NCBI RefSeq assembly: GCF_963675165.1
Contig: NC_087393.1
Location: 1,865,502-1,929,501 of the forward strand
Origin: Halichondria panicea
Taxonomy: Eukaryota > Porifera > Demospongiae > Suberitida > Halichondriidae
Direction: 5' to 3'
Length of the DNA stretch: 64,000 nt
Made by a program: the position numbers and the translations under genes. A model generated the notes under the pieces. It made no database searches. It saw nothing but the letters and a program-made list of their open reading frames with translations, and was not told where the DNA came from. Positions 9,351 through 31,729 of the stretch are shown here, in pieces; positions within the stretch are counted from its first letter, which is position 1, and each line of letters opens with the position of its first letter.

Positions 9351-12300
9351 TTATAGCCTCTTTTTCTGTGCTTTAGCTGGTAAATCCTCCAACAAACACT
9401 CACGAAGACTACTAGCAGGATGTATTTCAACACTAGAATGAGTTATGACATTATTTCTGATACTGAGAGACATCTCAATTGGATCTTTATTAAGATTTTC
9501 CTTTGAGCAACAGTAGCGAGGATTTTCAAACCACTCCGTCATTTCTTGAAGCTTGCCACTAATCCATTCTATAACCTTTGTGTACGGTTTGTTTGAGCAC
9601 TGGAATCTCTTCAACACACAGTGAGTGAAAAAAAAAGCAAGCATGATTGAGAAGATGTATATAAAGATGAGCATAAAAGTCATTGTATGAAATTCTTTGG
9701 TTAAGGGTATATCGAAGAGCTGTATTGCAGCTATTGAAAATAGGGTGAGGTTTAACATCAGAAAAGTATCCACAATGTTTCGACTTGCATTGGCAAAGGG
9801 TTTCAAATATGCTTGCAAAAGTGTTATGGAAGTTATACAGAAAGACATAATAACAAGCTGCATTTTGTTCACCCCAAGAGCTGAGATGGCGTATATCAAT
9901 ACACGGAAAAGAAGACGAAAGCTGACCCAAAATGTTCTATTAGGAGCGAAGGGAGCAATGAAGGCATGAATAACCGGTTTATAATTCTTTACGTATGGCA
10001 CTTGGTAAGAAATCTTGGGAACTAATAAAATAATTGGCAAGGGAAGTAGAACCACAAGCAGTATTAAACTTACGGCAACTAGAACTCCATGAATTTCATG
10101 GCCATATATGACATTTGGGTCGCGTCCCCATCGAATGATTTGCTCCTCTTGCTGGTTGATTGTTATCGGAACAAATGCAAGAATGGCTACACACGTTTCC
10201 GTTACACTAGCATAAAAAATATAGAGGAGGGTTGCAAAAATATGAGTGATACGTATTTTGCAGTAGAAGTTTGAGACTCTTTCGTACGTGACATACTTTC
10301 CAAACAGAGCAAAGGCGACAAAAATGACCATCAGATACAAGGGGAAAATTAGATTCAAACCAACCAGATCAAGTTCAGTCATTCCTTCGTAAAAACACGA
10401 CTTGACTCCTAAGTTCAGATTCAAGAAAGAGATTAAAGCAAGAGGTGGTCTACCTCTAACTTCCATGACTGGAAGAAACATCGATGTGTACACACTGAAT
10501 ATATTTGCATAAAAGATGAAGCCATTGACAAAACCATCAGTAATTGTCACATTAAACAAAGCAAGAATAACAAAAAGGATGATTCCCAAAGCAGCAAACA
10601 GAACAATCAAGGCCAAGTAATCATTGTTGGTACAGAGTTCACATTCTGTTCCTCCTAATACACGACTGTAGTTGTTAGCACACCCCCCACACAGCAGACC
10701 AGAGCGATGGTTCCTGCACTGGGTATCAGGCTTCGATAAAAACACTATTGGTACCGAGGTATGACCTTTACAAAAATTTCGAATGCAAGGTGCCTGTATA
10801 TAAAACCCTCTTTCGTCAATCCCTATCCAATTATCTACTTCAAAAGATATGCTACGATTTGTGTTGCACATGACGCCATTCAAGTACAATGAAATATCAC
10901 ACTGGCAACTCATTGTCGTTTCATTGTATGTAAACCCAGCAGAGCAGTTTCTCAAAGTCACAAATACAGTGAATGTAGCCACCAATGATACCTCGTTCGA
11001 AGTGAGGCTAACGCTATACTGCCCTCCCACACTTCCATTCACACGGATAAAAACATTACTGAATGCTTCCTCTCCTCCAGAAAGTAGTCGTCTGTTGCTA
11101 GCGCCAATTGTCGCCGATGCTGCACTATCATTTATCTGAGAGAATATCGTAAGAGGTACAGGTTTGCTTAATCTATCGTAGGCACTCAGGGGTATTACAA
11201 ATGGTTGTCCTGGCTCAACAATCACATTAACCAATATGATTGGTGAAGAGGAATTTTCTTCTGGTGTTGTAGTTAGCAACAGTGGAAAAGTGTTGATTGT
11301 TACATTATCATCTGGTTCTAATGGTGGATCGTAAACTACAGGTAATTCTTGTGGATTCAGGTGACTAATACTGGAGCAGTTTATGTCGGTGATGTTTAGG
11401 ATACTGATACTTTCATTTGCTCTCCAAGGACAATCAAAAAGGTTTGAACCAAATATTGCTTTACCTAACGGAGCAACATTTCTTAAAAATTTTATTATGT
11501 GCCTGTTGTTAGGTATTGAACAGCTATTGTCTACATTACAGTTAACGTCAACTTTTTCAAAAAACAACCAGCAATCGTAATCACTCGAGCGAATAGTCCT
11601 GAAATCAACATATATTGCCCCACCTACTACAATGGCACTATTGTTTTCAAACACCAGTTCTGTTTGGTTGATAAAAACAACGTACGACTCTCTCTCCAAA
11701 TGTAAGCCACCACCATTAACTCCACTATTGTGAGAGAAGAGAACATATCCAGACATCGCCAAAATAGCACTTCTAGTAGACAAAGCCGTCATGTCGTTTT
11801 GAGTGAAAGTATTATTACCAATAAAATGCACTCGTACGTTGCTGATTTCTGCTGCAGAATAAGTTTCAAACTGAGTTGTTGTTGTCCCAAAAGAAGTCAA
11901 CAGTGGTTGATTGCCTTCAATGAGAATCGAATCGATGATTATGCTTAGTCGTGATTCAAAAGCACTATAACTTAGTTCAGTTATAAACAGTCCGCTACCA
12001 AAGTTTCCACTATTGTTCCGAAATACACAGTCTTTTATTGTAATCAAATCATCTGTATATACAGTTGCGGTTGTAAACGAGAAAATCAGCAGACCACTTC
12101 CTGACAAAGCTATGTTGTGAACAAAAGAACAGTTCTCTATTTGCACTTTGCTTGAGTCTATAACAGAAATGACTGGATCAAATCGAAAAAGATCGAAATC
12201 TGTTGGAATTGGTACAAAAAAAGCAATACTGAGAGCACCAAACGGATCTAAACCATTGTTAGGAAATGTTCTGCCACCTCTGTAAAATAGACCACCATTT

Positions 12301-13304
12301 TTGCGAAATATGCAGTTTTGAATAATAATGTTGCTCCTTTGTGTTATATTGTACAAGAGAACATTCATACCTGCATTATGATACAAGGCTGAATTGTTGA
12401 TAACCGTGCAGCGGTCAAATCGAGTATTGACCCCATACCTTGCTTGTCCGAGAGATACACTCACACCTCCTGATCCTGCTATACTTGTGTTCAGAGCAAA
12501 TGTCGAGCCTAACGTTCTTGACAATTTGTTGTATAGAACCGTGAAGGGGTCTCGTCTGCAGTTGTAATTGTTCATTATGTTCCCATTTTCAAACGTAAAG
12601 GTTGAGTTTTCAGCTTGGATATTTTTTGACTCCTCTATGTAGTCAAGGTAGAGCAAGAAGAGACCTCCCCCAGAGCCGCCAGTAGAGAGTGTTACTCTGA
12701 AATTGCATACTGAATTGTTGGAGGGATAGTTTGAAATAAAGTCAACATTTGAAAATCTCGAATATCCAACGATGTTAATTCCAACCAATCCAAAACCTTC
12801 GTTCTCTTGAATGACAGTGTTCTCCATCACCAAATTCTGAATGTCTACAAGCATTATACCAGTTGAAAATTGGAATAATGGTGGAAAACACGCAGCTACA
12901 GAAAGTTTAACTGAAACGAAAAGAGTTGAAACACGATCGAATCCTGTGAAGCCACAATTCTGAATAACTACTCCAGTGATAGTCAGCCTCTGGATGTTCA
13001 CGAAAATCAGTCCAAAAGAATCATCACACTCTATGATCACATCCGAACTATTGCCTAGGTCACCAACAATGCTCAAATCAGTTTTTCCAGAAACATTATA
13101 GCTACTTCTTACAGTGTGTGTCCCTGGCTCTAACTGTAGAGTAGAATTGGAACGTATATTCTGCAAAGCCATATCCAATGTCTGACAAGATTTACTGCAG
13201 TTCCTATCAGCAGTGACAGAGATCATGTGAGCATTGGAGAACACAGAGCACAGTGTGAGGGTGGCGAGGACAAAGAGTCTGAGAGTGGCTCTTTCTTTGA
13301 GCAT
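9351..13304 (-). CDS. Pmp-like beta-helix / multi-span membrane protein A
   Basis: 1317 residues in one coding exon. The order of parts is: signal peptide (about 1-25, MLKERATLRLFVLATLTL); a long ectodomain (about 30-780) with repeated FxxN and GGxL/GGAI words (for example FENNSAIVVGGAIYV) and many N-glycosylation sequons, as in pectate-lyase-type parallel beta-helices and chlamydial Pmp adhesins; a Cys-rich block (about 785-893) with CRNHRSGLLCGGCANNYSR; about nine hydrophobic spans (about 895-1235) starting DYLALIVLFAALGI; and a cytoplasmic tail with ITHSSVEI and RECLLEDLP. I place the start at the ATG at 13302-13304 because paralogues B and C start at the same residue and a 5'UTR intron ends just upstream. 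It is likely a cell-surface adhesin or receptor. I know no named family with this full architecture, so the role is inference. Confidence 0.85.
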   Translation of the reverse strand: MLKERATLRLFVLATLTLCSVFSNAHMISVTADRNCSKSCQTLDMALQNIRSNSTLQLEPGTHTVRSSYNVSGKTDLSIVGDLGNSSDVIIECDDSFGLIFVNIQRLTITGVVIQNCGFTGFDRVSTLFVSVKLSVAACFPPLFQFSTGIMLVDIQNLVMENTVIQENEGFGLVGINIVGYSRFSNVDFISNYPSNNSVCNFRVTLSTGGSGGGLFLLYLDYIEESKNIQAENSTFTFENGNIMNNYNCRRDPFTVLYNKLSRTLGSTFALNTSIAGSGGVSVSLGQARYGVNTRFDRCTVINNSALYHNAGMNVLLYNITQRSNIIIQNCIFRKNGGLFYRGGRTFPNNGLDPFGALSIAFFVPIPTDFDLFRFDPVISVIDSSKVQIENCSFVHNIALSGSGLLIFSFTTATVYTDDLITIKDCVFRNNSGNFGSGLFITELSYSAFESRLSIIIDSILIEGNQPLLTSFGTTTTQFETYSAAEISNVRVHFIGNNTFTQNDMTALSTRSAILAMSGYVLFSHNSGVNGGGLHLERESYVVFINQTELVFENNSAIVVGGAIYVDFRTIRSSDYDCWLFFEKVDVNCNVDNSCSIPNNRHIIKFLRNVAPLGKAIFGSNLFDCPWRANESISILNITDINCSSISHLNPQELPVVYDPPLEPDDNVTINTFPLLLTTTPEENSSSPIILVNVIVEPGQPFVIPLSAYDRLSKPVPLTIFSQINDSAASATIGASNRRLLSGGEEAFSNVFIRVNGSVGGQYSVSLTSNEVSLVATFTVFVTLRNCSAGFTYNETTMSCQCDISLYLNGVMCNTNRSISFEVDNWIGIDERGFYIQAPCIRNFCKGHTSVPIVFLSKPDTQCRNHRSGLLCGGCANNYSRVLGGTECELCTNNDYLALIVLFAALGIILFVILALFNVTITDGFVNGFIFYANIFSVYTSMFLPVMEVRGRPPLALISFLNLNLGVKSCFYEGMTELDLVGLNLIFPLYLMVIFVAFALFGKYVTYERVSNFYCKIRITHIFATLLYIFYASVTETCVAILAFVPITINQQEEQIIRWGRDPNVIYGHEIHGVLVAVSLILLVVLLPLPIILLVPKISYQVPYVKNYKPVIHAFIAPFAPNRTFWVSFRLLFRVLIYAISALGVNKMQLVIMSFCITSITLLQAYLKPFANASRNIVDTFLMLNLTLFSIAAIQLFDIPLTKEFHTMTFMLIFIYIFSIMLAFFFTHCVLKRFQCSNKPYTKVIEWISGKLQEMTEWFENPRYCCSKENLNKDPIEMSLSIRNNVITHSSVEIHPASSLRECLLEDLPAKAQKKRL

Positions 13305-13338
13305 TTTGTTAGCAGTGTAGAAGTTCTGGCATGTCGAG

Positions 13339-13427
13339 CTGCACGTTAAAAAGTGAACAATATTGACCATAATTATTAGGTTTAGTAGCCTTAGCCTAAA
13401 AACACATTGTGATGGTATACAGCTCAC
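13339..13427 (-). other. 5'UTR intron of gene A
   Basis: Minus-strand GTGAGCT donor at 13427 and TTTTTAACGTGCAG acceptor ending at 13339 give an 89-bp intron just before the start codon. Genes B and C have an intron at the same place with the same TAG/GTGAG donor, which is the main support. Confidence 0.65.
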
Positions 13428-13428
13428 C

Positions 13429-14022: not shown

Positions 14023-17000
14023 TCAAAAAGAACTCTCATCAGCTCCTGTCCCTGTGGTATAGTTAGTGCTTCTGGGCGTAGTTGTCCCACTCTGTGCAGT
14101 ACTGTTTGGTATAGTGCTCTTCGGCTTTGCACGCACTGGTAGATCCTCCAACAAAGACTCACGAAACCGGGTAGCAGGAAATATTTCACAACTAGTGTGA
14201 GTTATAGCATTATTCATGACACTGGGAAACACTTCATTTGAATTCTCCTTGGCAGGTTCATCCTTTGAAAAACTGCAGTGTGGATTCTCAAACCAGTCAG
14301 CCATTTCGTTCATCTTGGCAGCCATCCATTTCTGAACCTTTGTATACGGTTTGTTCGAGAACTGGAATCTCTTCAACACGTAGTGAGTTAAAATCAAAAG
14401 AAACATGATTGAGAAAATGTACATGAAGATGAACATGAATATCGTCACTTGATATTCTTGGGTTAAGGATTTATCAAAGAGCACTATCGCCGCTATTGAA
14501 AATAGGGTGAGGTTGAACATCAAAAAAGTATCGACAACATTTCGACTGGCATTAGCAAACGGTTTCAAATACGCTTGCAAAAGTGTCATGGAAGTTATAC
14601 AGAAGGACATAATAATGAGCTGTATAGTACTCACTCCCAAAGCTGAGATGACGTATATTAATACACGGAAAAGAAGGCGAAAACTGACCCAAAACGTTCT
14701 ATTAGGAGTGAAAGGAGCAATGAAGGCATCAATAACCGGTTTATACTTCCTTATGTATGGTATTCGATAGGAAATCTTTGGAACCAATAGAATAATTGGC
14801 AGGGGAAGTAGAACCACTAGCAAAAATACACTTACGGCAACTAGAACTCCATGAATTTCATGGCCATACATGACGTTTGGGTCACGTCCCCATCGAATAA
14901 TTTGCTCTGCTTGCTGGTCGATAGTTATCGAAACAAATGCAAGAATGGCTACACACGTTTCCGTCACACTAGCATAGAAAATATAGAGGAGTGTTGCAAA
15001 AATATGAGTGATATGTATTTTGTAGTAGAAGTTTGAGACTTTTTCATACGTGACATACTTTCCAAACAGAGCAACGGCGACAAGAATGACCATCAAATAC
15101 AAGGGGAAAATTAGATTCAAACCAACCAGATCAAGTTCAGTCATTCCTTTGTAAAAACACGACTTGATTCCTAAGTTCAGATTCAAGAAAGAGATTACAG
15201 CAAGAGGTGGTCCACCTCTAACTTCCGTGACTGAAAGAAACGTCGATGTGTACACACTGAATATATTTGCATAAAAGATGAAGCCATTGACAAAACCATC
15301 AGTAATTGTCACATTAAACAAAGCAAGGATAACAAAAAGGATGATTCCCAAAGCAGCAAACAGAACAATCAAGGCCAAGTAATCATTGTTGGTACAGAGT
15401 TCACATTCTGTTCCTCCTAATACACGACTGTAGTTGTTAGCACACCCCCCACACAGCAGACCAGAGCGATGGTTCCTGCACTGGGTATCAGGCTCTGACA
15501 AGAGCACTACTGGTACTGAGGTACGAACTTCACAAAAATCTCGAATGCAAGGTGCCTGTATATAAAAGTTTCTTTCGTCAATCCCTATCCAATCATCTAC
15601 TTCAAAAGATATGCTACGATTTGTGTTGCACATGACACCAGTCAAATACAAGGAAATTTCACATTCGCAACTCATTGTCGTTTCATTGTATATAAACCCA
15701 GCAGAACAGTTTTTCAAAGTCACGAATACAGTGAATGTAGCCACCAATGATACCTCATTCGAAGTGATGGTAACTCTGTACTGTCTATCCACACTTCCAT
15801 TCACGCGGATCGAAATATTTCTGAACTTTTCTTCATCCCCTCCAGGAAGCAGTTCTCTGTTACTAACACCTATGGTAGCCGAAGCATCGTTATCATCTAT
15901 CTGAGAAAATACAGTAAGAGGAACTGGTTGCCCTATTCTATCGTAAGCACTCAGAGGTATTATAAACTGTTGTCCAGGCTCAACAGTCACATTTTTATAT
16001 GTGGTAGTTGGAGCAGAGGAATTTTGTTCAGGTGTTGTAGTTAGAAGCAGTGGAAAAGTATTGATTGTTACATTATTATCGATGGTAAATGGTGGATCGA
16101 AAAGTACAGGTAAATCTTGTGGATTCAAATTACTTATATTGGGGTAGCTTTCTATGTCGGTGATATTTATGATATTGATACTTTTATTCACTCTCCAAGG
16201 ACAGTCAAAAAGGTTTGAACCATACACTGCTTCGCCAAATGGGGCTTTGTTTCCAAAATACTTTATTATAAATCTGTTATTAGGTGCTGGACAGCTATTA
16301 GATACTTCACAGTATATGTCAACATCTTCAATAAACAGCCAGCAATCGTAACTACTCGAGCGAATAGTCCTGAAATCAACATATATTGCCCCACCTACTA
16401 CAATGGCACTATTGTTTTCAAACACCAGTTCTGTTTGGTTGATAAAAACAACGTACGACTCTCTCTCCAAATGTAAGCCGCCACCATTAACTCCACTATT
16501 GTGAGAGAAGATAACATATCCAGACATTGCCAAAACAGCACTTCTAGTAGACAAAGCCGTCATGTCATTTTGAGTGAAAGTATTATTACCAATAAAATGC
16601 ACTCGTACATTGCTGATTTCTGTTGCAGAATAAGTTTCAAACTGAGTTGTTGTCCCAAAAGAACTCAACAGTGGCTGATTGCCTATGATGATAATCGAAT
16701 CGATGATTATGCTTAGTCGTGATTCAAAAGCACTATAACTTAGTTCAGTTATGAACAGTCCGCTACCAAAGTTTCCAGTGTTGTTTCGAAATACGCAATC
16801 TTTTATCAAAATGACATCATTTGTGTATTGGTTTGCAGTTGTAAACGAGAAAATTAGTAGGCCACCTGCTGACAAAGCTATGTTATCAACAAAAGAACAG
16901 TTTTCTATTTGCACTCTGTTCGGGTCCAACTGAAATTGAAGAGAATTGTTTCGAGTAAGGCGGAAATCTGTTGGAATAGGTACGAAAAAAGCAATACCGA

Positions 17001-18075
17001 GAGCACCGAATGGATCTAAACCGTTGTCCGGAAAAAACGCCTGAGGATTGTATAATAGACCACCATTTTTTTGGAATATGCAGTTCTGAATGAAAACTTG
17101 GCTCCTTTGTGTTACATTGTATAAATAAACGTTCATACCTGCGTTCTGATATAAGGCTGAGTTATTGATAAATGTGCAGTGGTCAAATCGAGTATTGACT
17201 CCATACCTTGCTTGTCCGAGAGATACACTCACACCTCCTGATCCTGCTATACTTGTGTTCACAGCAAATTTTGAGTCTAGTGTTCTTGACAATCTGTTGT
17301 ATAGAACCGTGAAGGGGTCTCGTCTGCAGTTGTAATTGTTCATTATGTTCCCATTCTCGATTGTAAGAGTTGAGTTTTCAGCTTGAAGATTTTTTGACTC
17401 CTCTATGTAATCGTGATAGAGCAAGAAGAGACCTCCCCCAGAGCCGCCAGTAGAGAGTGTTACTCTGAAATTGCATACTGAATTGTTGGACGGATAGTTT
17501 GAAATAAAGTCAACATTTGAAAATCTCGAATTTCCAATGATGTTAATTCCAACCAATCCAAAACCTTCGTTCTCTTGAATGACAGTGTTCTCCATCACCA
17601 AATCCTGAATGTCTACAAGCATTATACCAGAGGAAAATTGGAATAACGGCATAAAAAATATATCAATGGAGAGTTTAATTGAATCGAAAAGAGTTGAAAC
17701 ACGATCGAATCCTGTGAAGCCACAATTCTGAATAACTACTCCAGTGATGGTCAGCCTCTGGATGTTCACGAAAATCAGCCCAAAAGAATCATCACACATT
17801 ATAACAACATCCAAACTATTACCTAGGTCACCAACAATGCTCAAATCAGTTATTTCTGAAACATTATAGCTACTTCTTACAGTGTGTGTCCCTGGTTCTA
17901 ACTGTAGAGTAGAGTTGGAACGTATATTCTGCAAAGCCATATCCAATGTCCGACAAGATTCACTGCAGTTCCTATCAGCAGTGACAGAGATCATGTTAGC
18001 ATTAGAGAAAACAGAGCACAGTGTGAGGGTGGCGAGGACTAACAGTCCGAAAGTAGCTCTTTCTTTAAGCAGCAT
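14023..18075 (-). CDS. Pmp-like beta-helix / multi-span membrane protein B
   Basis: 1350 residues, single coding exon, same plan as A: signal peptide (MLLKERATFGLLVLATL, 1-25), glycosylation-rich beta-helix ectodomain to about 785, Cys block with CRNHRSGLLCGGCANNYSR, about nine spans (about 897-1233) and a cytoplasmic tail. The tail has ITHTSCEIFPATRFRESLLE and then a Ser/Thr-rich extension (TTTPRSTNYTTGTGADESSF) that A lacks and that C has lost. The ectodomain and Cys block are almost identical to C over about 2.4 kb, while the membrane domain and N-terminus differ more; this is the mark of gene conversion. The start is the ATG at 18073-18075, five bases inside the exon that follows the 5'UTR intron acceptor. 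Confidence 0.85.
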   Translation of the reverse strand: MLLKERATFGLLVLATLTLCSVFSNANMISVTADRNCSESCRTLDMALQNIRSNSTLQLEPGTHTVRSSYNVSEITDLSIVGDLGNSLDVVIMCDDSFGLIFVNIQRLTITGVVIQNCGFTGFDRVSTLFDSIKLSIDIFFMPLFQFSSGIMLVDIQDLVMENTVIQENEGFGLVGINIIGNSRFSNVDFISNYPSNNSVCNFRVTLSTGGSGGGLFLLYHDYIEESKNLQAENSTLTIENGNIMNNYNCRRDPFTVLYNRLSRTLDSKFAVNTSIAGSGGVSVSLGQARYGVNTRFDHCTFINNSALYQNAGMNVYLYNVTQRSQVFIQNCIFQKNGGLLYNPQAFFPDNGLDPFGALGIAFFVPIPTDFRLTRNNSLQFQLDPNRVQIENCSFVDNIALSAGGLLIFSFTTANQYTNDVILIKDCVFRNNTGNFGSGLFITELSYSAFESRLSIIIDSIIIIGNQPLLSSFGTTTQFETYSATEISNVRVHFIGNNTFTQNDMTALSTRSAVLAMSGYVIFSHNSGVNGGGLHLERESYVVFINQTELVFENNSAIVVGGAIYVDFRTIRSSSYDCWLFIEDVDIYCEVSNSCPAPNNRFIIKYFGNKAPFGEAVYGSNLFDCPWRVNKSINIINITDIESYPNISNLNPQDLPVLFDPPFTIDNNVTINTFPLLLTTTPEQNSSAPTTTYKNVTVEPGQQFIIPLSAYDRIGQPVPLTVFSQIDDNDASATIGVSNRELLPGGDEEKFRNISIRVNGSVDRQYRVTITSNEVSLVATFTVFVTLKNCSAGFIYNETTMSCECEISLYLTGVMCNTNRSISFEVDDWIGIDERNFYIQAPCIRDFCEVRTSVPVVLLSEPDTQCRNHRSGLLCGGCANNYSRVLGGTECELCTNNDYLALIVLFAALGIILFVILALFNVTITDGFVNGFIFYANIFSVYTSTFLSVTEVRGGPPLAVISFLNLNLGIKSCFYKGMTELDLVGLNLIFPLYLMVILVAVALFGKYVTYEKVSNFYYKIHITHIFATLLYIFYASVTETCVAILAFVSITIDQQAEQIIRWGRDPNVMYGHEIHGVLVAVSVFLLVVLLPLPIILLVPKISYRIPYIRKYKPVIDAFIAPFTPNRTFWVSFRLLFRVLIYVISALGVSTIQLIIMSFCITSMTLLQAYLKPFANASRNVVDTFLMFNLTLFSIAAIVLFDKSLTQEYQVTIFMFIFMYIFSIMFLLILTHYVLKRFQFSNKPYTKVQKWMAAKMNEMADWFENPHCSFSKDEPAKENSNEVFPSVMNNAITHTSCEIFPATRFRESLLEDLPVRAKPKSTIPNSTAQSGTTTPRSTNYTTGTGADESSF

Positions 18076-18080
18076 TGAAG

Positions 18081-18881: not shown

Positions 18882-18943
18882 TTGATGCCTTCATTGCTCC
18901 TTTTGCTCCTAATAGAACATTTTGGGTCAGCTTTCGTCTTCTT
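18882..18943 (+). pseudogene. 62-bp inverted fragment of family gene C membrane domain
   Basis: The plus strand reads DAFIAPFAPNRTFWVSFRLL, an internal piece of the multi-span domain, in the opposite direction to all family genes. By eye it is identical over 62 bp to the inverse of 20763-20824 in gene C and less similar to the same place in B. It has no neighbouring homology, so it looks like a templated insertion (filler DNA) next to a LINE remnant. Confidence 0.8.
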
Positions 18944-18987
18944 GTCGATCCACCACATTTACGCTACATAAGAATGTAACAATCAAT

Positions 18988-19640
18988 ACCTTTCCACTGT
19001 TTCTATCTCATTAAAGCTGATGCAGTCTTGGTGGTTCATTATCTTGTATGCCTGGCAGCATGTCAGTAGTCTACGACGATCCTCAAGGGATAGCCAGGAT
19101 AGTGAATAATCATCGTACGATTTGCTCCAGCAGTAGATCTTGTTCCATTTCGCTTCTATCCATCGGGCTGCTCGCTTGAACGTTTTATAGTTTTAATAGT
19201 AGTGTTTAGTCTTAGTGTGGGGTGACCACACAGGGCTATAATACTTATTTAAGGTATGGTCTGACCAAGACTGAAAACGCTCTTGATTTCGCTGTTTTCG
19301 ATGAGTGGTGGAGGTTTCTTCTGAGGAGATTCAGGATCTTGGTGGCTTTTGCTACTGCATGGTTTGTTTGATCATTGATTCCACTTCAATTTGCTCAATT
19401 AACAGTCCAAGTAGATCTACTTAAACACAGTCACCCATTCAAGATTTGTGTTGTTGATTCTATAACTGAAGTTCTTAGTAGTACATGTACTGCACATGAC
19501 TTTGATGACATTGAAATTTAGTTGCCACCTATTGGACCATTGTTGATAGATCATCTTGCAAGGTTTGGCAGTCATTGATGGTTCCAATGTCTCTGAACAG
19601 AACACAATCATCAACAAAAAGTATTGTCTTTGTTGTTCTG
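18988..19640 (-). mobile_element. LINE (non-LTR retrotransposon) remnant: reverse-transcriptase C-terminal half
   Basis: On the minus strand the translation shows the RT catalytic box as ILFVDDCVLFRDIGTI (about 19577-19624). Further on come KATKILNLLRRNLH and FSVLVRPYL (about 19253-19350), and then FKRAARWIEAKWNKIYCW and LSLEDRRRLLTCCQAYKIMN. This is the usual order in CR1/Jockey/L2-type LINEs. The frame is broken at several places between these blocks, the 5' part (endonuclease and early RT) is missing, and I see no poly-A or tail repeat. It is an old 5'-truncated copy. Confidence 0.8.
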
Positions 19641-20179: not shown

Positions 20180-23100
20180 CTATGTGCATGCAGTACTGTA
20201 CGGTGTAGTGTTCTTCGGCTTTGTACGCACTAGTAGATCCTCCAACAAAGACTCACGAAACCGAGTAGCAGGAAATATTTCACAACTAGTGTGAGTTATG
20301 GCATTATTCATGACACTGGGAAACATTTCATTTGAATTCTCTTTGACAGGTTCATCCTTGCACATGCAGTGTGGATTCTCAAACCAGTCTGCCATTTCCT
20401 GCAGCTTGGCAGTTATCCATTTTAGAACCTTTGTGTATGGTTTGTTAGAGCACTGGAATCTCTTCAACACATAGTGAGTTATAATCAAAAGAAACATGAT
20501 TGAGAAAATGTACATGAAGATGAACATGAATATCGTCGCTTGATATTCTTTAGTTAAGGATTTATCGAATAGCACTATTGCAGCCATTGAAAATAGGGTG
20601 AGGTTGAACATCAAAAAAGTATCGACAACGTTTCGACTGGCATTGGCAAACGGCTTCAAATACGCTTGCAAAAGTGTCATGGAAGTAATACAGAAGGATA
20701 TAATAATGAGCTGTACAGTATTCACGCCCAAAGCTGAGATGATGTAAATTAATACACGGAAAAGAAGACGAAAGCTGACCCAAAATGTTCTATTAGGAGC
20801 AAAAGGAGCAATGAAGGCATCAATAACCGGTTTATGCTTCTTTATGTATGGTATTCGATAGGAAATCTTCGGAACCAATAGAATAATTGGCAGGGGAAGT
20901 AGAATCACAAGCAATAGTACACTTACGGCAACTAGAACTCCATGAATTTCATGGCCATACATGACATTTGGATCGCGTCCCCATCGAATGATTTGCTCTG
21001 CTTGCTGGTTGATTGTTATTGGAACAAATGCAAGAATGGCTACACACGTTTCCGTCACACTAGCATAGAAAATATAGAGGAGTGTTGCAAAAATATGAGT
21101 GATATGTATTTTGCAGTAGAAGTTTGAGACTTTTTCATATGTGACATACTTTCCAAACAGAGCAAAGGCAACAAGAATTACCATCAGATACAAGGGAAAA
21201 ATTAGATTCAAACCAACCAGATCAAGTTCAGTCATTCCTTTGTAAAAACATGACTTGATTCCCAAGTTCAGATTCAAGAAAGACATTACAGCAAAAGATG
21301 GTCCATCTCTAACTTCCGTGACTGGAAGAAACGTCGATGTGTACACACTGAATATATTTGCATAAAAGATGAAGCCATTGACAAAACCATCAGTAATTGT
21401 CACATTAAACAAAGCAAGGATAACAAAAAGGATGATTCCCAAAGCAGCAAACAGAACAATCAAGGCCAAGTAATGATTGTTGGTACAGAGTTCACATTCT
21501 GTTCCTCCTAATACACGACTGTAGTTGTTAGCACACCCCCCACACAGCAGACCAGAGCGATGGTTCCTGCACTGGGTATCAGGCTCTGACAAGAGCACTA
21601 CTGGTACTGAGGTACGAACTTCACAAAAATCTCGAATGCAAGGTGCCTGTATATAAAAGTTTCTTTCGTCAATCCCTATCCAATCATCTACTTCAAAAGA
21701 TATGCTACGATTTGTGTTGCACATGACACCAGTCAAATACAAGGAAATTTCACATTCGCAACTCATTGTCGTTTCATTGTATATAAACCCAGCAGAACAG
21801 TTTTTCAAAGTCACGAATACAGTGAATGTAGCCACCAATGATACCTCATTCGAAGTGATGGTAACTCTGTACTGTCTATCCACACTTCCATTCACGCGGA
21901 TCGAAATATTTCTGAACTTTTCTTCATCCCCTCCAGGAAGCAGTTCTCTGTTACTAACACCTATGGTAGCCGAAGCATCGTTATCATCTATCTGAGAAAA
22001 TACAGTAAGAGGAACTGGTTGCCCTATTCTATCGTAAGCACTCAGAGGTATTATAAACTGTTGTCCAGGCTCAACAGTCACATTTTTATATGTGGTAGTT
22101 GGAGCAGAGGAATTTTGTTCAGGTGTTGTAGTTAGAAGCAGTGGAAAAGTATTGATTGTTACATTATTATCGATGGTAAATGGTGGATCGAAAAGTACAG
22201 GTAAATCTTGTGGATTCAAATTACTTATATTGGGGTAGCTTTCTATGTCGGTGATATTTATGATATTGATACTTTTATTCACTCTCCAAGGACAGTCAAA
22301 AAGGTTTGAACCATACACTGCTTCGCCAAATGGGGCTTTGTTTCCAAAATACTTTATTATAAATCTGTTATTAGGTGCTGGACAGCTATTAGATACTTCA
22401 CAGTATATGTCAACATCTTCAATAAACAGCCAGCAATCGTAACTACTCGAGCGAATAGTCCTGAAATCAACATATATTGCCCCACCTACTACAATGGCAC
22501 TATTGTTTTCAAACACCAGTTCTGTTTGGTTGATAAAAACAACGTACGACTCTCTCTCCAAATGTAAGCCGCCACCATTAACTCCACTATTGTGAGAGAA
22601 GATAACATATCCAGACATTGCCAAAACAGCACTTCTAGTAGACAAAGCCGTCATGTCATTTTGAGTGAAAGTATTATTACCAATAAAATGCACTCGTACA
22701 TTGCTGATTTCTGTTGCAGAATAAGTTTCAAACTGAGTTGTTGTCCCAAAAGAACTCAACAGTGGCTGATTGCCTATGATGATAATCGAATTGATGATTA
22801 TGCTTAGTCGTGATTCAAAAGCACTATAACTTAGTTCAGTTATGAACAGTCCGCTACCAAAGTTTCCAGTGTTGTTTCGAAATACGCAATCTTTTATCAA
22901 AATGACATCATTTGTGTATTGGTTTGCAGTTGTAAACGAGAAAATTAGTAGGCCACCTGCTGACAAAGCTATGTTATCAACAAAAGAACAGTTTTCTATT
23001 TGCACTCTGTTCGGGTCCAACTGAAATTGAAGAGAATTGTTTCGAGTAAGGCGGAAATCTGTTGGAATAGGTACGAAAAAAGCAATACCGAGAGCACCGA

Positions 23101-24166
23101 ATGGATCTAAACCGTTGTCCGGAAAAAACGCCTGAGGATTGTATAATAGACCACCATTTTTTTGGAATATGCAGTTCTGAATGAAAACTTGGCTCCTTTG
23201 TGTTACATTGTATAAATAAACGTTCATACCTGCGTTCTGATATAAGGCTGAGTTATTGATAAATGTGCAGTGGTCAAATCGAGTATTGACCCCATACCTT
23301 GCTTGTCCGAGAGATACACTCACACCTCCTGATCCTGCTATACTTGTGTTCACAGCAAATTTTGAGTCTAGTGTTCTTGACAATCTGTTGTATAGAACCG
23401 TGAAGGGGTCTCGTCTGCAGTTGTAATTGTTCATTATGTTCCCATTCTCGATTGTAAGAGTTGAGTTTTCAGCTTGAAGATTTTTTGACTCCTCTATGTA
23501 ATCGTGATAGAGCAAGAAGAGACCTCCCCCAGAGCCGCCAGTAGAGAGTGTTACTCTGAAATTGCATACTGAATTGTTGGACGGATAGTTTGAAATAAAG
23601 TCAACATTTGAAAATCTCGAATTTCCAATGATGTTAATTCCAACCAATCCAAAACCTTCGTTCTCTTGAATGACAGTGTTCTCCATCACCAAATCCTGAA
23701 TGTCTACAAGCATTATACCAGAGGAAAATTGGAATAACGGCATAAAAAATATATCAATGGAGAGTTTAATTGAATCGAAAAGAGTTGAAACACGATCGAA
23801 TCCTGTGAAGCCACAATTCTGAATAACTACTCCAGTGATGGTCAGCCTCTGGATGTCCATGAAAATCAGTCCAAAAGAATCATCACACGTTATAACAACA
23901 TCCAAACTATTACCTAGGTCACCAACAATGCTCAAATCAGTTATTTCTGAAACATTATAGCTACTTCTTACAGTGTGTGTCCCTGGCTCTAACTGTAGAG
24001 TAGAGTTGGAACGTATATTCTGCAAAGCAGTATCCAATGTTCGACAAGATTCACTGCAGTTCCCGTCAGCAGTGACAGAGATCATGTTAGCATTGGAGAA
24101 AACAGAGCACAGTGTGAGGATGGCGAGGACAAAGAGTCCGAGAGTGGCTCTTTCTTTAAGCAGCAT
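20180..24166 (-). CDS. Pmp-like beta-helix / multi-span membrane protein C
   Basis: 1328 residues in one coding exon with the same layout as A and B: signal peptide (MLLKERATLGLFVLAILTL), beta-helix ectodomain, LCGGCANNYSR Cys block, about nine spans (about 897-1235) and a tail with ITHTSCEIFPATRFRESLLE. The ectodomain is essentially that of B (one Asp-to-Asn change noticed), while the membrane domain carries its own changes (FLPVTEVRDGPSFAV against FLSVTEVRGGPPLAV in B). Compared with B, a 4-bp TGCA insertion near the 3' end shifts the frame and ends the protein 22 residues sooner. The start at 24164-24166 is supported by B and by the 5'UTR intron. Confidence 0.85.
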   Translation of the reverse strand: MLLKERATLGLFVLAILTLCSVFSNANMISVTADGNCSESCRTLDTALQNIRSNSTLQLEPGTHTVRSSYNVSEITDLSIVGDLGNSLDVVITCDDSFGLIFMDIQRLTITGVVIQNCGFTGFDRVSTLFDSIKLSIDIFFMPLFQFSSGIMLVDIQDLVMENTVIQENEGFGLVGINIIGNSRFSNVDFISNYPSNNSVCNFRVTLSTGGSGGGLFLLYHDYIEESKNLQAENSTLTIENGNIMNNYNCRRDPFTVLYNRLSRTLDSKFAVNTSIAGSGGVSVSLGQARYGVNTRFDHCTFINNSALYQNAGMNVYLYNVTQRSQVFIQNCIFQKNGGLLYNPQAFFPDNGLDPFGALGIAFFVPIPTDFRLTRNNSLQFQLDPNRVQIENCSFVDNIALSAGGLLIFSFTTANQYTNDVILIKDCVFRNNTGNFGSGLFITELSYSAFESRLSIIINSIIIIGNQPLLSSFGTTTQFETYSATEISNVRVHFIGNNTFTQNDMTALSTRSAVLAMSGYVIFSHNSGVNGGGLHLERESYVVFINQTELVFENNSAIVVGGAIYVDFRTIRSSSYDCWLFIEDVDIYCEVSNSCPAPNNRFIIKYFGNKAPFGEAVYGSNLFDCPWRVNKSINIINITDIESYPNISNLNPQDLPVLFDPPFTIDNNVTINTFPLLLTTTPEQNSSAPTTTYKNVTVEPGQQFIIPLSAYDRIGQPVPLTVFSQIDDNDASATIGVSNRELLPGGDEEKFRNISIRVNGSVDRQYRVTITSNEVSLVATFTVFVTLKNCSAGFIYNETTMSCECEISLYLTGVMCNTNRSISFEVDDWIGIDERNFYIQAPCIRDFCEVRTSVPVVLLSEPDTQCRNHRSGLLCGGCANNYSRVLGGTECELCTNNHYLALIVLFAALGIILFVILALFNVTITDGFVNGFIFYANIFSVYTSTFLPVTEVRDGPSFAVMSFLNLNLGIKSCFYKGMTELDLVGLNLIFPLYLMVILVAFALFGKYVTYEKVSNFYCKIHITHIFATLLYIFYASVTETCVAILAFVPITINQQAEQIIRWGRDPNVMYGHEIHGVLVAVSVLLLVILLPLPIILLVPKISYRIPYIKKHKPVIDAFIAPFAPNRTFWVSFRLLFRVLIYIISALGVNTVQLIIISFCITSMTLLQAYLKPFANASRNVVDTFLMFNLTLFSMAAIVLFDKSLTKEYQATIFMFIFMYIFSIMFLLIITHYVLKRFQCSNKPYTKVLKWITAKLQEMADWFENPHCMCKDEPVKENSNEMFPSVMNNAITHTSCEIFPATRFRESLLEDLLVRTKPKNTTPYSTACT

Positions 24167-24196
24167 TGAAAGAGGTCTGAATTCAAGTGTTGAAAG

Positions 24197-24449: not shown

Positions 24450-24531
24450 CAATGCAAGGCACATGAGGCATAAAGGTATTGTTCCTGAGTCAATGCAAGG
24501 CACATGTGGCATAATGGTATTGTTCCTGAGT
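24450..24531. repeat. 41-bp tandem repeat, two copies
   Basis: The units at 24450-24490 and 24491-24531 begin CAATGCAAGGCACATG and end GTATTGTTCCTGAGT. They differ at two positions. A single related copy lies upstream of gene B (about 18390-18435), so this is a duplicated piece of the family's upstream flank. Confidence 0.85.
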
Positions 24532-25166: not shown

Positions 25167-27208
25167 TTAATGCACAGAATTCTCGAGTAAAGCTTCACGC
25201 AATGTGACAACATCATCCAAAGCGATGCTAGTATGGGTAACTGCATCTCCAGTGGTATGACCAACTGATCTATGTCTTTCTTTTTTAGAGCAGCAACAGT
25301 GTGGATTATAAAGATACATTTTCAAATGCTTAAGCTTTCTTTTCATCCACGCCACACTCTTTGTGTATAGCCTGTCCGTGTATTCAAATCTCTTCATCAC
25401 GTAGTGACTAATTAGCAGCAGAAACATAGAGTACATAAAGATCTGCATTACATGCATGACATCCTCTTCAGGTATGATTTTCAAACAGCAACAACAGAAA
25501 AAACTGTCAAGTTTACCATTAACAAGATATCGACATAATTCTGAGCAGTTCCTGTAAATGGTTGAATCATGGCCTGGATGATGGTCACAGAAGAAACGAA
25601 TACAGATATGAGAGAACCAATTGAGTATTGCTCACTCCGAAAGCTGCAGTTGTGAATATCACTACATGAAAAACTAGTCGAAAACTAATCCAGTATTCTC
25701 GATTACTGGCAAAAGGTGCAATAAAAGCATCGATTATAGGTTTAAATTTCCGTATAGAACGAAATTCTAGGGATTAGTAGAATAATTGGTAATGGTATAA
25801 GAACAACAAGCAGAATAACACTGATAACTACAAGAACACCATGCAATCCTACACCATACACTGCATTTGGATCTCGGCCCCAACGATTTCCGCTTACACG
25901 GTCGATAGTTACCGGAAGAACGGTTAAAACAGCAATGCAAGTCTCCACGACACTAGCATAGCACAAGAGAAAAAGAATTGCGAATACACGAGTGATATTG
26001 ATTTGCCGATAAAAGTTTGACACTCTCGTATGAGTGACATACTTTCCAAACAGAGCAAATTAAAAGCCAGGAGAATAAACATTAAATACAAGGGAAAGAT
26101 TAGAGTTAAGCCAGTTAAATCAAGTTCAGTCATTCCATTGACGAAACAGCTGTCAATTCCAAAGTTGAGATTAATAAAGGAGATCACAGCAGAAGCTGGT
26201 GCACTACTTGTCTCCGTGACAGGGAGAACATTTCACACTAAAAATGTTAACATAAAAGATAAAGCCATTGACAAAACCATCAGTAATTGTCACATTAAAC
26301 AAGGCAAGGACCACAAAAAGGAGGATTCCAAAAGCGGCAAACAGAACAATCAAGGCCAAGTAATGATTGTTGGTACAGACTTCACATTGTGTGCCTCCTA
26401 ATATACAACTGTAGCCGTCAGCACACCCCCCACACAGCAGACCAGAGCGATGGTTCCTACACTGGGTATCAGGCTCCGATAAGTTTACAACTGAAACTCC
26501 AATCTCACAAAACTTTCGAATGCAAGGTGCCCGTATGTACAAACTTAATTCATTAACGCCAATCCAATCATTGTCATTATAGAATATACTTCCATTGGTA
26601 TTGCAGGTGACACCATCCAAGAATTTGTCAATTTCACAATCGCAGGCCTTGGTTGTTTGATCGTACACAAACCCTAGAGAGCAATTGTGTAATGTTACAT
26701 GTACGGTGAGTACAGAAGTCAGTAGTGCTTTATTGGTGTTGATGGTCACTAAGTAATCAGCACCCTCTGTCCCATTGATGCGAACAGGCACATTGGAAAA
26801 TGTTTCTTCTCCCCCAAGTAGCAAAATGCACCAAGAGTGGAAGTAGCTCCATTAGTTGAGTTTTCAGCTTGAAGATTCTTTGATTCCTCATTGTAATCGT
26901 GATAGAGCAAGAAGAGACCTCCCCCAGAGCCGCCTGCAGAGAGTGTTACTCTGAAATTGCATACTGAATTGTTGGTGGGATATTAGAAATGAAGTCAACA
27001 TTAGGAATTACCAATGATGTTAATCCGACCATTCCAAAACCTTCATTCTCTTGAATGACAGTGTTCTCCATCACCAAGTTTTGAATGTCAACAAGCATTA
27101 TACCAGTTGAAAATTCAAATGAAGAATACAGCAATGGACAGTTTAATTGAACCAAAAAGAGTTGAAACACGATCGAATCCTGTGAAGCCGCAATTCTGAA
27201 TAACTACA
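25167..27208 (-). pseudogene. Decayed family member D (Pmp-like multi-span protein)
   Basis: Family homology runs through the whole stretch but in broken frames. It starts inside the ectodomain (IQNCGFTGFDRVS, then MVDIQNLVMENTVIQENEGF), so the signal peptide and first ~110 residues are missing. Near 26850 the sequence jumps from AENST to the LLGGEETFSNVPVRI segment, which removes about 500 residues of beta-helix compared with B. The Cys block (CRNHRSGLLCGGCADGYS) and membrane spans follow, with frame breaks near 26190-26230, 26040-26060, 25760 and 25490-25650. The tail still has AVTHTSIALDD and LREALLENS before a stop. It is a dead copy, but it can donate sequence to its neighbours by conversion. 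Confidence 0.85.
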
Positions 27209-27778
27209 CACAACTTATCAGAAATGAAACCATCTATACTCTCATTAGGGTGAGCTAGATTTTACACTTAACTTACACTATTAGCCTCCTTTACAAGGCC
27301 TCACCATCTTCAGTGCGGCCTGGAATCGAGGCTATGCCAGTATAATAATTTATGGCATATAATCTCTGGCATATAATGTATAGGGCCAATATAATTATTA
27401 TGGCATAATTATTACACTAGGAGCAAAGTGACCTTTTGAGACTTGAGCCTACCTCCATGGCCACCTAATACTGCTTAACGTGCATGCACCACGCTTCTGT
27501 GCTGTCACAACATGTGTGACCATAATTATAGACATTTTCCCCCTATTATACTCATAAGATGGTGTGCAAAATATCGAACAGAAACACTATCTAATTAAAA
27601 GGTTTCTAGTACAATCCCATGGGACTACAGTGCAAGTATGCAAAATGAAATGCCATAGAGTTGCCATTGTGCATTGCAATTGATTTTTTTCACACATCTT
27701 TATATTTACAAAATAAAAATGGAATTACACACTGAGTTTAGGCCACCCATTTCACACACAAACTGATTAACCTAACTT
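27209..27778. other. Intergenic region between D and E
   Basis: AT-rich; contains one copy of the GGCCTGGAATCGAGGCTA dispersed word (about 27318-27335). No gene is seen; the right end should hold the 3' UTR of gene E. Confidence 0.5.
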
Positions 27779-30700
27779 CTAAATAGCATTTTCAGTTGAT
27801 GCCTCATCGATACTGCTGCTAATGTCACCTGCATCGATCAGTTCTTCTCTGTAAGCAATAAAATTGGTCTCTTCAAAGTTCATTTCTCGTCTCAATTCAA
27901 TGCTTGCGTGAGTAACCAAATCATCTTTCTTAATATCAAGATCTTTATTCTTCCTGATTTGCGTATGTTTTTTATTAGGGGAAGAGAGCTTAGCTTTCAG
28001 TCTGTTAACTTTTTGCTTTAACAATTTAATCAGTTTTTCATACGGATCTCGAGTGCACTTGAAGCGAATCAAAAGGTAATGCAAATTGAGAAGTGCGAAC
28101 ATAAGTAAAAACACATACAAGTTAACTGTGTTGAAACTTCTCTCCTTTCCTGGAGTAATTAAACTTTCCAAATGAGTGTAGACTGCAGTAATAGAAAAAA
28201 TTGTTAGGTTCATCATTAGCATACGATTGACTAGATTTCTTGTGATACTATTAAATGGCCGCACATTTGTTTCAACGACCGTAAGAATAGCAATAAGGAC
28301 TGAAAAAACCACCACTACTGCAGTTTCTGAAGAAAGTGAAATGAGAAAGAAAACAATCCGAAACATCATTCTAACACCGACCCAAAATTCTCTACCAGGT
28401 GCTAGAGGAGCAATGAAAGCATCAAGTAAAGGTTTAGATTTCTGTAAGTAAGATGTACGATAGATGACTCTTGGGAAAAGTAGGAGCAGAGGAAACGGAA
28501 TTAGAACCACGAGTATACAAGCCGACAGTACAGCTAAAAACACATGAGTAGGGTCTTCATACAAAATGTTAGGATCTCTTGCCCATCGAAGGCTATTGTT
28601 TATTGTGGTTGAACTCAGAATTGCAAAGCTATTTTGGATTAGGCTGGTATAAGAGAGTAAGATCAATGTAGCAAAGATGTGGGTAACATTGATCTTTTGA
28701 CAGAAGTTTGCCACTTTCTGATTAGAAATGTATTTTGCAAACAGAAAGAAAATCAGTAGAAGCAGTAGCAGGTACACTGGGAATATGAACCTTAGACCAG
28801 CTAAAGCAAGCTCAGTCATTTCAGGATAAAAGCAGATAGCAATTCCAAAATCAAGATTAAGAAATGCGATAATCTTCTCGGGTACTTGGCGAGCATCATT
28901 GGGTAAACTTGGGGAAAAAGAAGTGAGATACACACTACATATGTTGCTGTAGAAGATGAAACCATTAATGAAGCCATCTGTTATGGTCACATTCAACACT
29001 GCTAGATAAGCAAATAAACCAATTCCTAATATCGCAAAAAAAAGAATCCACAATAAGCTAATGTAGCTGTCGCATTTATCACATGATGATGTTCCTATCT
29101 TTCGACTAAAATTTTCTGCACACCCTCCACACAAAATCCCGGCTCGGTTGTTCCTACATTGAGAATCCGATTCTGATAGATCCAATATAGAATGTCCAGG
29201 GGTACAATAATCAAAAATGCACTGTTTCTGAATGTAACCAAACACTTCATCCATTCCAAGCCAGTAGTCAACACGGTATGACAGTGTGCCATCTTCATTG
29301 CATTCTACCTGTTCAAGATCTGTCACATTACAGTCACAGCCGTGAGTTATGTTATTGAAATTGAACCCACCTGGGCAAAAACGCAGAAACACTCTAGCTG
29401 TGAAATTTTCTACATGTTCTTCAGCAGAAGTTATGGTCATATCGTATGACGTGTTTTGCTCTGCAAAAACAATAAGAGGAACAGTTGTGAAAGTTTTATC
29501 CCCACCACCTGCTAAAAGATATCTATCGCTTCCACCAATCTGCGAGTGAGCAGCATCGTTTTCTGTGATTGTTTGAAGTTGTGAGAGAACTGTGAGAGGA
29601 ACGGATTGGTTTAGTTTGTCAAAGCTTCCGAGAGATAGTGTGAAGTTCTGACCCGGATATAAGTTGATAGTTTTGTCATCGGTGTTGTTATACTCGACGA
29701 TATGCTCAGCTACGGTATTTATGGTGTTTCCAGTTGTGAAAGGTGGATCGAAAATTATTGGGAGTAAAGAATTAGAGACGTTGGTAATGCTATCACTGAG
29801 AGCAAGGTGCACTAACCCACTATTGTTAACATTCCAAGGGCATCTGGAGAATGAGGACCCATAAATGGCCGATCCAAACTGGGCACGGTTGTTAATGAAT
29901 GTCAAGCTATAACGGCCTTCTGGGTCGGGGCACTTGTTCTGAACATTACAAAAGATATCTACATCATCGATAAACAGAAAACAGTCATAGTCATTTGCAC
30001 GTATGGTGTCAAAGTTAACGTATATGCCTCCACCATTCACTTGTGCCGTATTTTCAGTGAATCGCACATCTGCTCTATCTCCAGCTAGTACCAAATAGGA
30101 CTCAGCGTCGAGACTTAAAGCACCTCCATTTATACCTACATTCTCACTGAAGTTGGTGGAACCTGAAATAACTAAAATGCCACTGTATACAGAGATCGCA
30201 GTTTGTTTGTTTGAGTAAAACCGATTTGTTCCATTAAGAGTAACATTGATGAAATTTATATCGATGACACCAGTGGTACTGGATTGAACAGAGAATGTAG
30301 GTATCCTTTGATTTCCTACAGCTGTTATCGAATCAAAAATAACCCTTAGGCCAGGCTCAAAGGCACTATAGCTAATCTCGGTGACAAACACTGCACTGCC
30401 ATAATCTCCCATGTTGTTTTCAAAGTGGCAGTCTTGAATAGTCATTCTGTCTTGGATACCGGCGACAGTTGGTCCTAGTGAAAACACCTGAATACCGGAA
30501 CCACTTTGGGCGATGTTTTGCTGGAAAGTACAGTTAAGAACATCCACGGAGCTTTCGAGTTGTGAAATGATCGTACTCAATAAGGTATCACTGTAGGCAG
30601 AATTAGAGGGAACTGGCAGGTAAAAAGCAGCAATAAGAGCTCCGGCAGGGTTCGAAACGTTTGTCTGTAGAGGACCATCCAAAACTTCCAAAATTATTCC

Positions 30701-31729
30701 ATTGTCTAAGAAGTTAGTATTGGTAATGTAAATATGGCTATCAGATGTCAATTCGAAATGTGAAACTTCAAGTGCAGAGCCATGATATGTTCCAAAGTTG
30801 TTACTGAACAAGGAATCAGTTACATTTGCATACACAGTGTAAGAGCTCTGAGCAAGAGAGATGGTTATCCCACCAGCTCCAATAAAGGAAACGTTTTGAA
30901 TCAATCTCGGCTCTAAGCTTCTCGATAGCAGGTTGTGCTGATATGAAAATAGATCGATACGACAGTTGTAGTTCTCACGGACCTGTATATTTTCAAGGAG
31001 AAGGTTGTATGTGTCGTTGATGCGAGTGAAATTCTCCAAATCAGCTATATAGTCCTGATAAAGTAGGTACATGGCACCTCCAGATCCTCCAGGAGAAGAG
31101 GTTTGTTCCACCTCCAAAACGCACTCAATTGGTCTGTTTCGTGTAAAGTTGACGTTAGAAATCCTCGACTTGCCAACAATGTTTATTCCCACAACTCCAA
31201 ACCCTTTATTGCGATCCACAACCATGTCTTCCATTGTCAGATCAGTAATATGAGCCATAAAGAGTCCAGTTGAGAAATCACCAAGGGGATCATAAAACAA
31301 AACAATGAATCTTTCAATATAGGACAACGTAGCGTTGACATTTTCTGTCCCGTTGAAACCACAGCCACGAAGAGTAAGCCCTCTAAATGTCAGCCTCTCA
31401 ATGCTCATGAATATTAGGCCAAATGAAGGGTCGCATTGTATTACCACATTAGAGGGATCGCTAGAATTACCAATGATGCTCAAATCAGTGAGGTCAATAA
31501 CCCAAGAATAGTGACTGATTACGTGTTCTCCAGGTTGAAGGGAAAGTGTTGTGTTTGAAGTGAGATTGCTTATGCTTAGCATTGTATTCAGTGTCACACA
31601 TGATTCATTGACTTCTGTTTGATTGTTGCAGTAAGGGCTTAATTGGACCACATTTTGAGCAAAGGTAGAAACGTGCAGGGATAATATGAGTAGTGATGTG
31701 AAGAGTAAGCAGCACGCCTCTCTTGACAT
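27779..31729 (-). CDS. Pmp-like beta-helix / multi-span membrane protein E (intact copy)
   Basis: 1316 residues in one coding exon and a clearly more distant member of the same family. It has a signal peptide (MSREACCLLFTSLLILSL), a beta-helix ectodomain with GGSGGAMYLLYQDY, FSENVGINGGALSL and FTENTAQVNGGGIYV repeats, and a Cys block with CRNNRAGILCGGCAENFSR. About nine spans follow (about 893-1216), including the shared NVTITDGFINGFIFYSNI segment, and then a longer, Lys-rich cytoplasmic tail with LVTHASIELRRE and YREELID. A possible 5'UTR intron is suggested by a minus-strand GTAAGTG near 31970 and TACATGCAG near 31754. The left breakpoint of the 16.9-kb duplication (28626) lies inside this gene, but this copy is whole. 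Confidence 0.85.
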   Translation of the reverse strand: MSREACCLLFTSLLILSLHVSTFAQNVVQLSPYCNNQTEVNESCVTLNTMLSISNLTSNTTLSLQPGEHVISHYSWVIDLTDLSIIGNSSDPSNVVIQCDPSFGLIFMSIERLTFRGLTLRGCGFNGTENVNATLSYIERFIVLFYDPLGDFSTGLFMAHITDLTMEDMVVDRNKGFGVVGINIVGKSRISNVNFTRNRPIECVLEVEQTSSPGGSGGAMYLLYQDYIADLENFTRINDTYNLLLENIQVRENYNCRIDLFSYQHNLLSRSLEPRLIQNVSFIGAGGITISLAQSSYTVYANVTDSLFSNNFGTYHGSALEVSHFELTSDSHIYITNTNFLDNGIILEVLDGPLQTNVSNPAGALIAAFYLPVPSNSAYSDTLLSTIISQLESSVDVLNCTFQQNIAQSGSGIQVFSLGPTVAGIQDRMTIQDCHFENNMGDYGSAVFVTEISYSAFEPGLRVIFDSITAVGNQRIPTFSVQSSTTGVIDINFINVTLNGTNRFYSNKQTAISVYSGILVISGSTNFSENVGINGGALSLDAESYLVLAGDRADVRFTENTAQVNGGGIYVNFDTIRANDYDCFLFIDDVDIFCNVQNKCPDPEGRYSLTFINNRAQFGSAIYGSSFSRCPWNVNNSGLVHLALSDSITNVSNSLLPIIFDPPFTTGNTINTVAEHIVEYNNTDDKTINLYPGQNFTLSLGSFDKLNQSVPLTVLSQLQTITENDAAHSQIGGSDRYLLAGGGDKTFTTVPLIVFAEQNTSYDMTITSAEEHVENFTARVFLRFCPGGFNFNNITHGCDCNVTDLEQVECNEDGTLSYRVDYWLGMDEVFGYIQKQCIFDYCTPGHSILDLSESDSQCRNNRAGILCGGCAENFSRKIGTSSCDKCDSYISLLWILFFAILGIGLFAYLAVLNVTITDGFINGFIFYSNICSVYLTSFSPSLPNDARQVPEKIIAFLNLDFGIAICFYPEMTELALAGLRFIFPVYLLLLLLIFFLFAKYISNQKVANFCQKINVTHIFATLILLSYTSLIQNSFAILSSTTINNSLRWARDPNILYEDPTHVFLAVLSACILVVLIPFPLLLLFPRVIYRTSYLQKSKPLLDAFIAPLAPGREFWVGVRMMFRIVFFLISLSSETAVVVVFSVLIAILTVVETNVRPFNSITRNLVNRMLMMNLTIFSITAVYTHLESLITPGKERSFNTVNLYVFLLMFALLNLHYLLIRFKCTRDPYEKLIKLLKQKVNRLKAKLSSPNKKHTQIRKNKDLDIKKDDLVTHASIELRREMNFEETNFIAYREELIDAGDISSSIDEASTENAI

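Follow-up and report, generated by a model that had tools for sequence, protein, structure and literature searches.

What kind of protein is encoded by a sponge gene family that joins a large, repeat-bearing ectodomain to about nine membrane spans? The question is raised by a tandem array on contig NC_087393.1 of Halichondria panicea (assembly GCF_963675165.1), analysed here within a stretch of 64,000 nucleotides (positions 1,865,502 to 1,929,501 of the forward strand), the whole of which we call the window and to which all positions refer. An earlier note, made from the letters alone, had described the array as a clustered family coupling a Pmp-like beta-helix to a multi-span membrane part. 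Judging from sequence, we see an even chance that the array is a tandem family encoding receptors or adhesion proteins of the plasma membrane, in which the beta-helix would bind a ligand and the nine-span module would respond.

Four long members share one plan, with a decayed copy among them

Four long open reading frames (ORFs) of 1316-1359 residues, here called A, B, C and D, follow each other head to tail on the minus strand, where the earlier note had placed them (Table 1; member lengths begin at the first Met to be followed by a hydrophobic, signal-like segment). The clustering it described is thus present, and so is the decayed fifth member, which lies between C and D and was recovered as tblastn pieces at 27207-26854, 26824-25484 and 25457-25179. 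This copy carries frameshifts and about 500 of its middle codons are gone; its hinge and first spans are still open at 26204-26824. Protein identity is 81% for A-B and for A-C, 96% for B-C and 40-41% for D against each of the other three. A second, truncated copy of D belongs to a duplicated segment and is not to be counted as an independent member. Each long member has the same plan: a signal-like start leads to an ectodomain with FxxN/GGA repeats, and after a Cys-rich stretch with LCGGCA come about nine spans and a tail, which is short.

The ectodomain is predicted to be of the beta-helix type

Of six proteins scanned with Pfam, four have the Chlam_PMP model above its cut-off, namely B, C, D and the second copy of D; in A the model stays below it, and for the decayed ORF it is not listed. 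The NCBIfam model POMP_repeat passes in both members scanned, A and D. Motif counts in the ectodomains were compared with 5000 composition-preserving shuffles per member (values in the order A, B, C, D). FxxN occurs 13, 13, 13 and 10 times (shuffle means 5.5, 5.7, 5.7 and 4.4; matched by 7, 7, 13 and 34 shuffles), GG[AG] followed by a hydrophobic residue three times per member (mean 0.1-0.2; matched by 2, 1, 1 and 8) and the looser [FIVL]xxN 39, 37, 37 and 31 times (means 22.3-25.4; matched by 1, 12, 15 and 96), while an ad hoc Asn-ladder pattern is within chance (matched by 328, 213, 107 and 1540 of the 5000). Sequons for N-glycosylation number 24, 25, 25 and 26 against shuffle means of 13.0-13.6 (matched by 13, 1, 2 and 0); these 24-26 sites fall in an ectodomain of about 835 residues, whereas membrane part and tail, together 453-483 residues long, have 5-7. 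Such a sequon-rich ectodomain, beyond shuffles in all four members, agrees with the proposal that the family would be highly glycosylated.

Residues 25-893 of D were modelled with AlphaFold from the four-sequence alignment. Across model residues 32-540 the result is a strand-rich solenoid, in which 35 of the 51 ten-residue blocks have a mean predicted local distance difference test score (pLDDT) of at least 55 (up to 89) and 16 lie below 50 (down to 21); model residues 541-869 are below 50. Foldseek returned 259 PDB matches to this model, four of them at an expectation value (E) of 0.001 or less, all to the polysaccharide lyase RbmB, and the 50 best of the 259 look like beta-helix proteins from their titles, including lyases, tailspikes and the adhesin PfbA. 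A viral fold library gave 114 matches, two of them at E ≤0.001, namely a phage pectate lyase superfamily protein and one unnamed protein. Taken together, the repeat models, the solenoid and the PDB matches favour a beta-helix-type ectodomain, in keeping with the earlier note, at a confidence kept moderate by the pLDDT values, low TM-scores and weak periodicity; structure prediction, which it had proposed as a check and which might have shown no beta-helix, yielded a beta-helix-like solenoid at that same confidence.

As the best fold matches of the predicted model are polysaccharide lyases and glycosidases, the proteins might also be membrane-anchored enzymes or binding proteins that cleave or hold polysaccharides with a pectate-lyase fold. 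This we consider quite improbable: the same fold list holds beta-helices of many functions, the TM-scores are low, no lyase family is listed in Pfam, and nine conserved spans exceed the needs of an anchor.

Between helix and membrane lies a neck of about 230 residues without a confident fold, followed by the LCGGCA hinge, which the earlier note had pointed out and which is invariant in the alignment of A, B, C and D. A Pfam scan of the neck-plus-hinge pieces of D, A and B gave no match for A and B, and for D only a sub-threshold match to DUF7630 (PF24633) and an EGF-type match at E 0.2. DUF7630 recurs weakly over the hinge in four of the six proteins (B, C, D and the decayed ORF), one of the four membrane parts and one of the three neck pieces; its best score, 14.9 bits, falls short of the curated cut-off (27 bits), and membership of this family was rejected.

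A membrane module of about nine spans that matched no named family

The averaged hydropathy of the membrane part has 11 peaks above 0.9. Two of these are read as non-spanning, namely FLNL-GI-CFY, which follows span 2, and DAFIAP, which precedes span 6, thus leaving nine spans. A count of about nine, as the earlier note had it, with the N-terminus outside and the C-terminus inside, is our judgement from hydropathy, charge and a low-confidence model rather than a program prediction. The loops after spans 3 and 5, counted in D and A, are basic, as for the cytoplasmic side, and the tail is only slightly net basic. The long helices of the AlphaFold membrane model fall at about the same places as the hydropathy spans, and many residues within the spans are invariant across members that are only 40% identical.

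The earlier note knew of no named animal receptor with this plan, and the multi-span part indeed matches no described channel or receptor family in Pfam or by sequence in the PDB. Three of the four membrane parts have no Pfam match up to E 10, and that of D has only CDC45 (E 0.033, over the last span and the tail) and DUF7630 (E 0.1), neither of which comes near its cut-off. Profile searches against PDB sequences gave no match with the membrane part up to E 10 or with the whole protein up to E 1, and PHROGs gave no family for the four members. Membership of the G-protein-coupled receptors (GPCRs) was rejected on the same kind of evidence, as no seven-span, GPS or GAIN family is listed in Pfam up to E 1 for the six proteins or up to E 10 for the four membrane parts, in scans whose filters drop weak matches.

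Relatives were searched in viral and prokaryotic contig collections, where absence says little about eukaryotes. Pattern searches combined with tblastn of the membrane alignment confirmed no relative there (128 viral and 27 genome pattern stretches). A degenerate NG-IFY-NI pattern was found in 17 viral and at least 120 genome stretches, and tblastn of A and D against these 137 reached a best E of 0.67, i.e. chance; an NL-GI-CFY pattern was found in five viral stretches, with a best E of 0.27. Within the window NL-GI-CFY occurs only in the four long members and the second copy of D, five matches against none in 100 shuffles. A literature search by title and abstract opening, a thin negative, gave no paper naming the family among the matches listed, and no mention of DUF7630 or PF24633 was found in it.

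The earlier note called the tail, of 85-115 residues, signalling-like, a description that was rejected. The tail has a single YTKV/YEKL near the membrane, and FPSV in B and C; the four tails contain no pair of immunoreceptor tyrosine-based activation motifs, no PxxP and no shared C-terminal motif, and they end in four different tetrapeptides, of which only ESSF of B loosely fits a PDZ ligand. A TH-S-E patch is kept in all four tails, though the tail has the highest nonsynonymous and synonymous divergence (dN and dS) between A and B.

Protists and invertebrates have channels with large extracellular sensing domains, and the main rival explanation is that the family forms a cation channel of this kind, TRP/polycystin-like or other. 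About nine spans, a tail without signalling motifs and the conserved, semi-hydrophobic FLNL-GI-CFY stretch before the third span, which could be re-entrant, would all suit a channel. Neither the Pfam matches of the four membrane parts nor the PDB sequence searches, both up to E 10, contain TRP, polycystin or any other known channel family, although weak matches are filtered out in such searches, and the membrane model offers no usable fold. We regard a channel as possible, on the unlikely side.

Conversion and purifying selection

The coding alignment of B and C has 3984 sites, of which 105 are different, and the differences are clustered at both ends. One run of 1316 bases is identical, and no run of this length arose in 10,000 random placements. 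For this pair dS amounts to 0.014 for the helix, 0 for the neck, 0.136 for hinge and spans together and 0.232 for the tail; immediately upstream of the two genes the DNA is 70-84% identical. This pattern of near-identical ectodomains and diverged ends looks conversion-like, which supports the description of a converting family for this pair, with a collapsed or mixed assembly as an alternative source. Divergence between A and B is patchy, with dS per 60-codon window ranging from 0.02 to 0.86, which suggests that A may take part in conversion, too. Between B and C, at 18882-19008 on the plus strand, there are two adjoining inverted gene fragments, one of 65 bases that matches the membrane-part sequence of C at 20759-20823 to 98.5%, and one of 68 bases that matches the neck region in B and C (16039-16104, 22130-22195) to 84%; they look like patchwork insertions copied from the genes.

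For A-B, dN/dS is 0.36 in the helix, 0.36 in the neck, 0.33 in the hinge plus spans and 0.56 in the tail, and for B-C 0.34 in the helix and 0.20 in the hinge plus spans; these are pairwise averages, which would miss a few positively selected sites, and divergence from D is at or near saturation. With dN/dS below 1 throughout the domains measured, selection looks purifying. Conversion as an engine of diversity was therefore rejected: its effect here is to homogenise B and C, and with such dN/dS values nothing argues for diversifying recognition. This bears on a further alternative, a homophilic adhesion or self-marker family that acts mainly via the ectodomain and uses the membrane part as a scaffold. 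A tandem cluster, a sequon-rich ectodomain and a conversion-like pattern would suit such a family, but the near-identity of the B and C ectodomains and a dN/dS far under 1 render it improbable.

A possible receptor or adhesion function

If the proteins are receptors or adhesion molecules of the plasma membrane, the beta-helix would face the outside, an orientation based on the signal-like start, the sequons and, partly, charge. It would be rigid and glycosylated and most likely bind a polysaccharide or glycoprotein via its side or its loops, and the neck and the Cys-braced hinge would pass binding on to the nine-span module. The latter may carry the response, by conductance or by coupling to a partner; we assign the response to this module because the tail is short and without known docking motifs. 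Moreover, the nine-span part and the ectodomain are under similarly strong constraint, so that the former is probably more than an anchor. Recognition of microbes or of self, as the earlier note suggested, is a guess.

Several points weigh against this reading. Purifying selection together with homogenising conversion does not point to variable recognition. The ectodomain model of D has a mean pLDDT of 45.5, with 171 of 869 residues at 70 or above, and its fold matches have low TM-scores (query-normalised 0.11-0.26), so that the matches support the beta-helix class and no closer relation; in the hydrophobic autocorrelation over 60 lags the coil periodicity is weak (best z 1.8 for D at lag 23 and 3.1 for A at lag 21). 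The AlphaFold membrane model, with a mean pLDDT of 40.5, is unusable for the fold, and even the best of its fold matches (E 0.4) is no better than chance. Finally, the loop after span 1 should be cytoplasmic, yet it has no basic residue and contains an invariant NVT sequon.

Going beyond the receptor or adhesion function, we speculate that the nine-span part represents an unnamed, old eukaryotic class of receptor or channel that couples glycan recognition by a beta-helix to a response, with conversion keeping the tandem ectodomains uniform while the tails diverge; this is unlikely but worth stating. If true, animals or their relatives would have a new way to sense surfaces or glycans, using an ectodomain whose fold is familiar chiefly from adhesins of bacteria, tailspikes of phages and polysaccharide lyases.

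Duplication and neighbouring genes

The window is eukaryotic DNA, in which the array is flanked on one side by a tandem pair of indoleamine 2,3-dioxygenase ORFs and on the other by ankyrin ORFs and a COX11-like ORF. The dioxygenase genes (2082-3341 and 5364-6623, minus strand) are single ORFs that cover nearly the full Pfam model and are 83% identical in DNA. An ORF at 32832-33851 on the minus strand matches the middle and N-terminal domains of APD1-4, a family named for E3 ubiquitin ligases; it contains a hydrophobic stretch, its tail is rich in proline, and its listed matches include no RING family. The perfect repeat that contains the second copy of D may be a very recent duplication or an assembly artefact, and it also doubles the ankyrin, APD1-4-like and COX11-like ORFs.

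Table 1. Members of the array, parts of member D and the duplicated segment, in window positions.
Feature	Position	Strand	Remarks
Member A	9351..13304	-	1317 residues; ORF extends to 13427; POMP_repeat E 0.00042; Chlam_PMP below cut-off
Member B	14023..18075	-	1350 residues; Chlam_PMP E 1.5e-06
Member C	20180..24166	-	1328 residues; ectodomain mostly near-identical to B; Chlam_PMP E 1.4e-06
Decayed member	about 25179..27207	-	frameshifted, middle missing; from tblastn pieces and three-frame reading
Member D	27779..31729	-	1316 residues; Chlam_PMP E 1.2e-06; POMP_repeat E 2e-06
D, signal-peptide-like start	31658..31729	-	residues 1-24; by eye and hydropathy
D, beta-helix-like part	30038..31564	-	about residues 56-564; predicted model
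D, neck	29153..29833	-	about residues 633-859; without confident fold
D, Cys-rich hinge (LCGGCA)	29072..29158	-	residues 858-886; sub-threshold DUF7630 match
D, putative nine-span module	28079..29050	-	about residues 894-1217; alignment and hydropathy/charge
D, presumed cytoplasmic tail	27782..28078	-	about residues 1218-1316; TH-S-E patch common to four members
Exact tandem duplication	28626..62415		28626-45519 = 45522-62415; 16,894 bases, 100% identical
Truncated second copy of D	45491..48625	-	1044 residues; residues 1-1035 at 99.9% identity; cut by duplication junction

Comparison with known systems

The family is most readily compared with the chlamydial Pmp proteins (PF02415/TIGR01376), with which it shares FxxN and GGA-type tetrapeptide repeats, as described for Pmp in PMC10715098, and a predicted beta-helical outer part. 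In contrast to Pmp, no more than one or two stretches per protein exceed the cut-offs of the repeat models, and the predicted helix is followed by about nine helical spans in a eukaryotic gene. Identity with Pmp was rejected, as no autotransporter beta-barrel family is listed and the C-terminal part consists of hydrophobic helical spans.

Adhesion-type GPCRs and the choanoflagellate GPCR families (PMC12716839) resemble the sponge proteins in combining a large ectodomain with an odd number of spans and an N-terminus that lies outside, whereas the sponge proteins have about nine spans instead of seven and no GPCR or GAIN/GPS family listed; the main text of that paper contains none of the terms 'beta-helix', 'pectin' and 'Pmp'.

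Among animals, unnamed multi-span proteins of sponges and other invertebrates with an LCG-C hinge, NG-IFY-NI and NLD-GI-CFY form a lead for comparison, and the nine-span family may be widespread and merely uncharacterised.

A published Pmp-like protein of Trichomonas already has FxxN/GGA repeats in a predicted beta-helix of a eukaryote (PMC10715098), a likeness that concerns the ectodomain, the part compared here. A Pmp-type ectodomain in a eukaryote is known, and what stands out in the sponge family is the membrane module without a name; the architecture is real, and this module, which matched no named class in the family models searched, merits a specialist's look.

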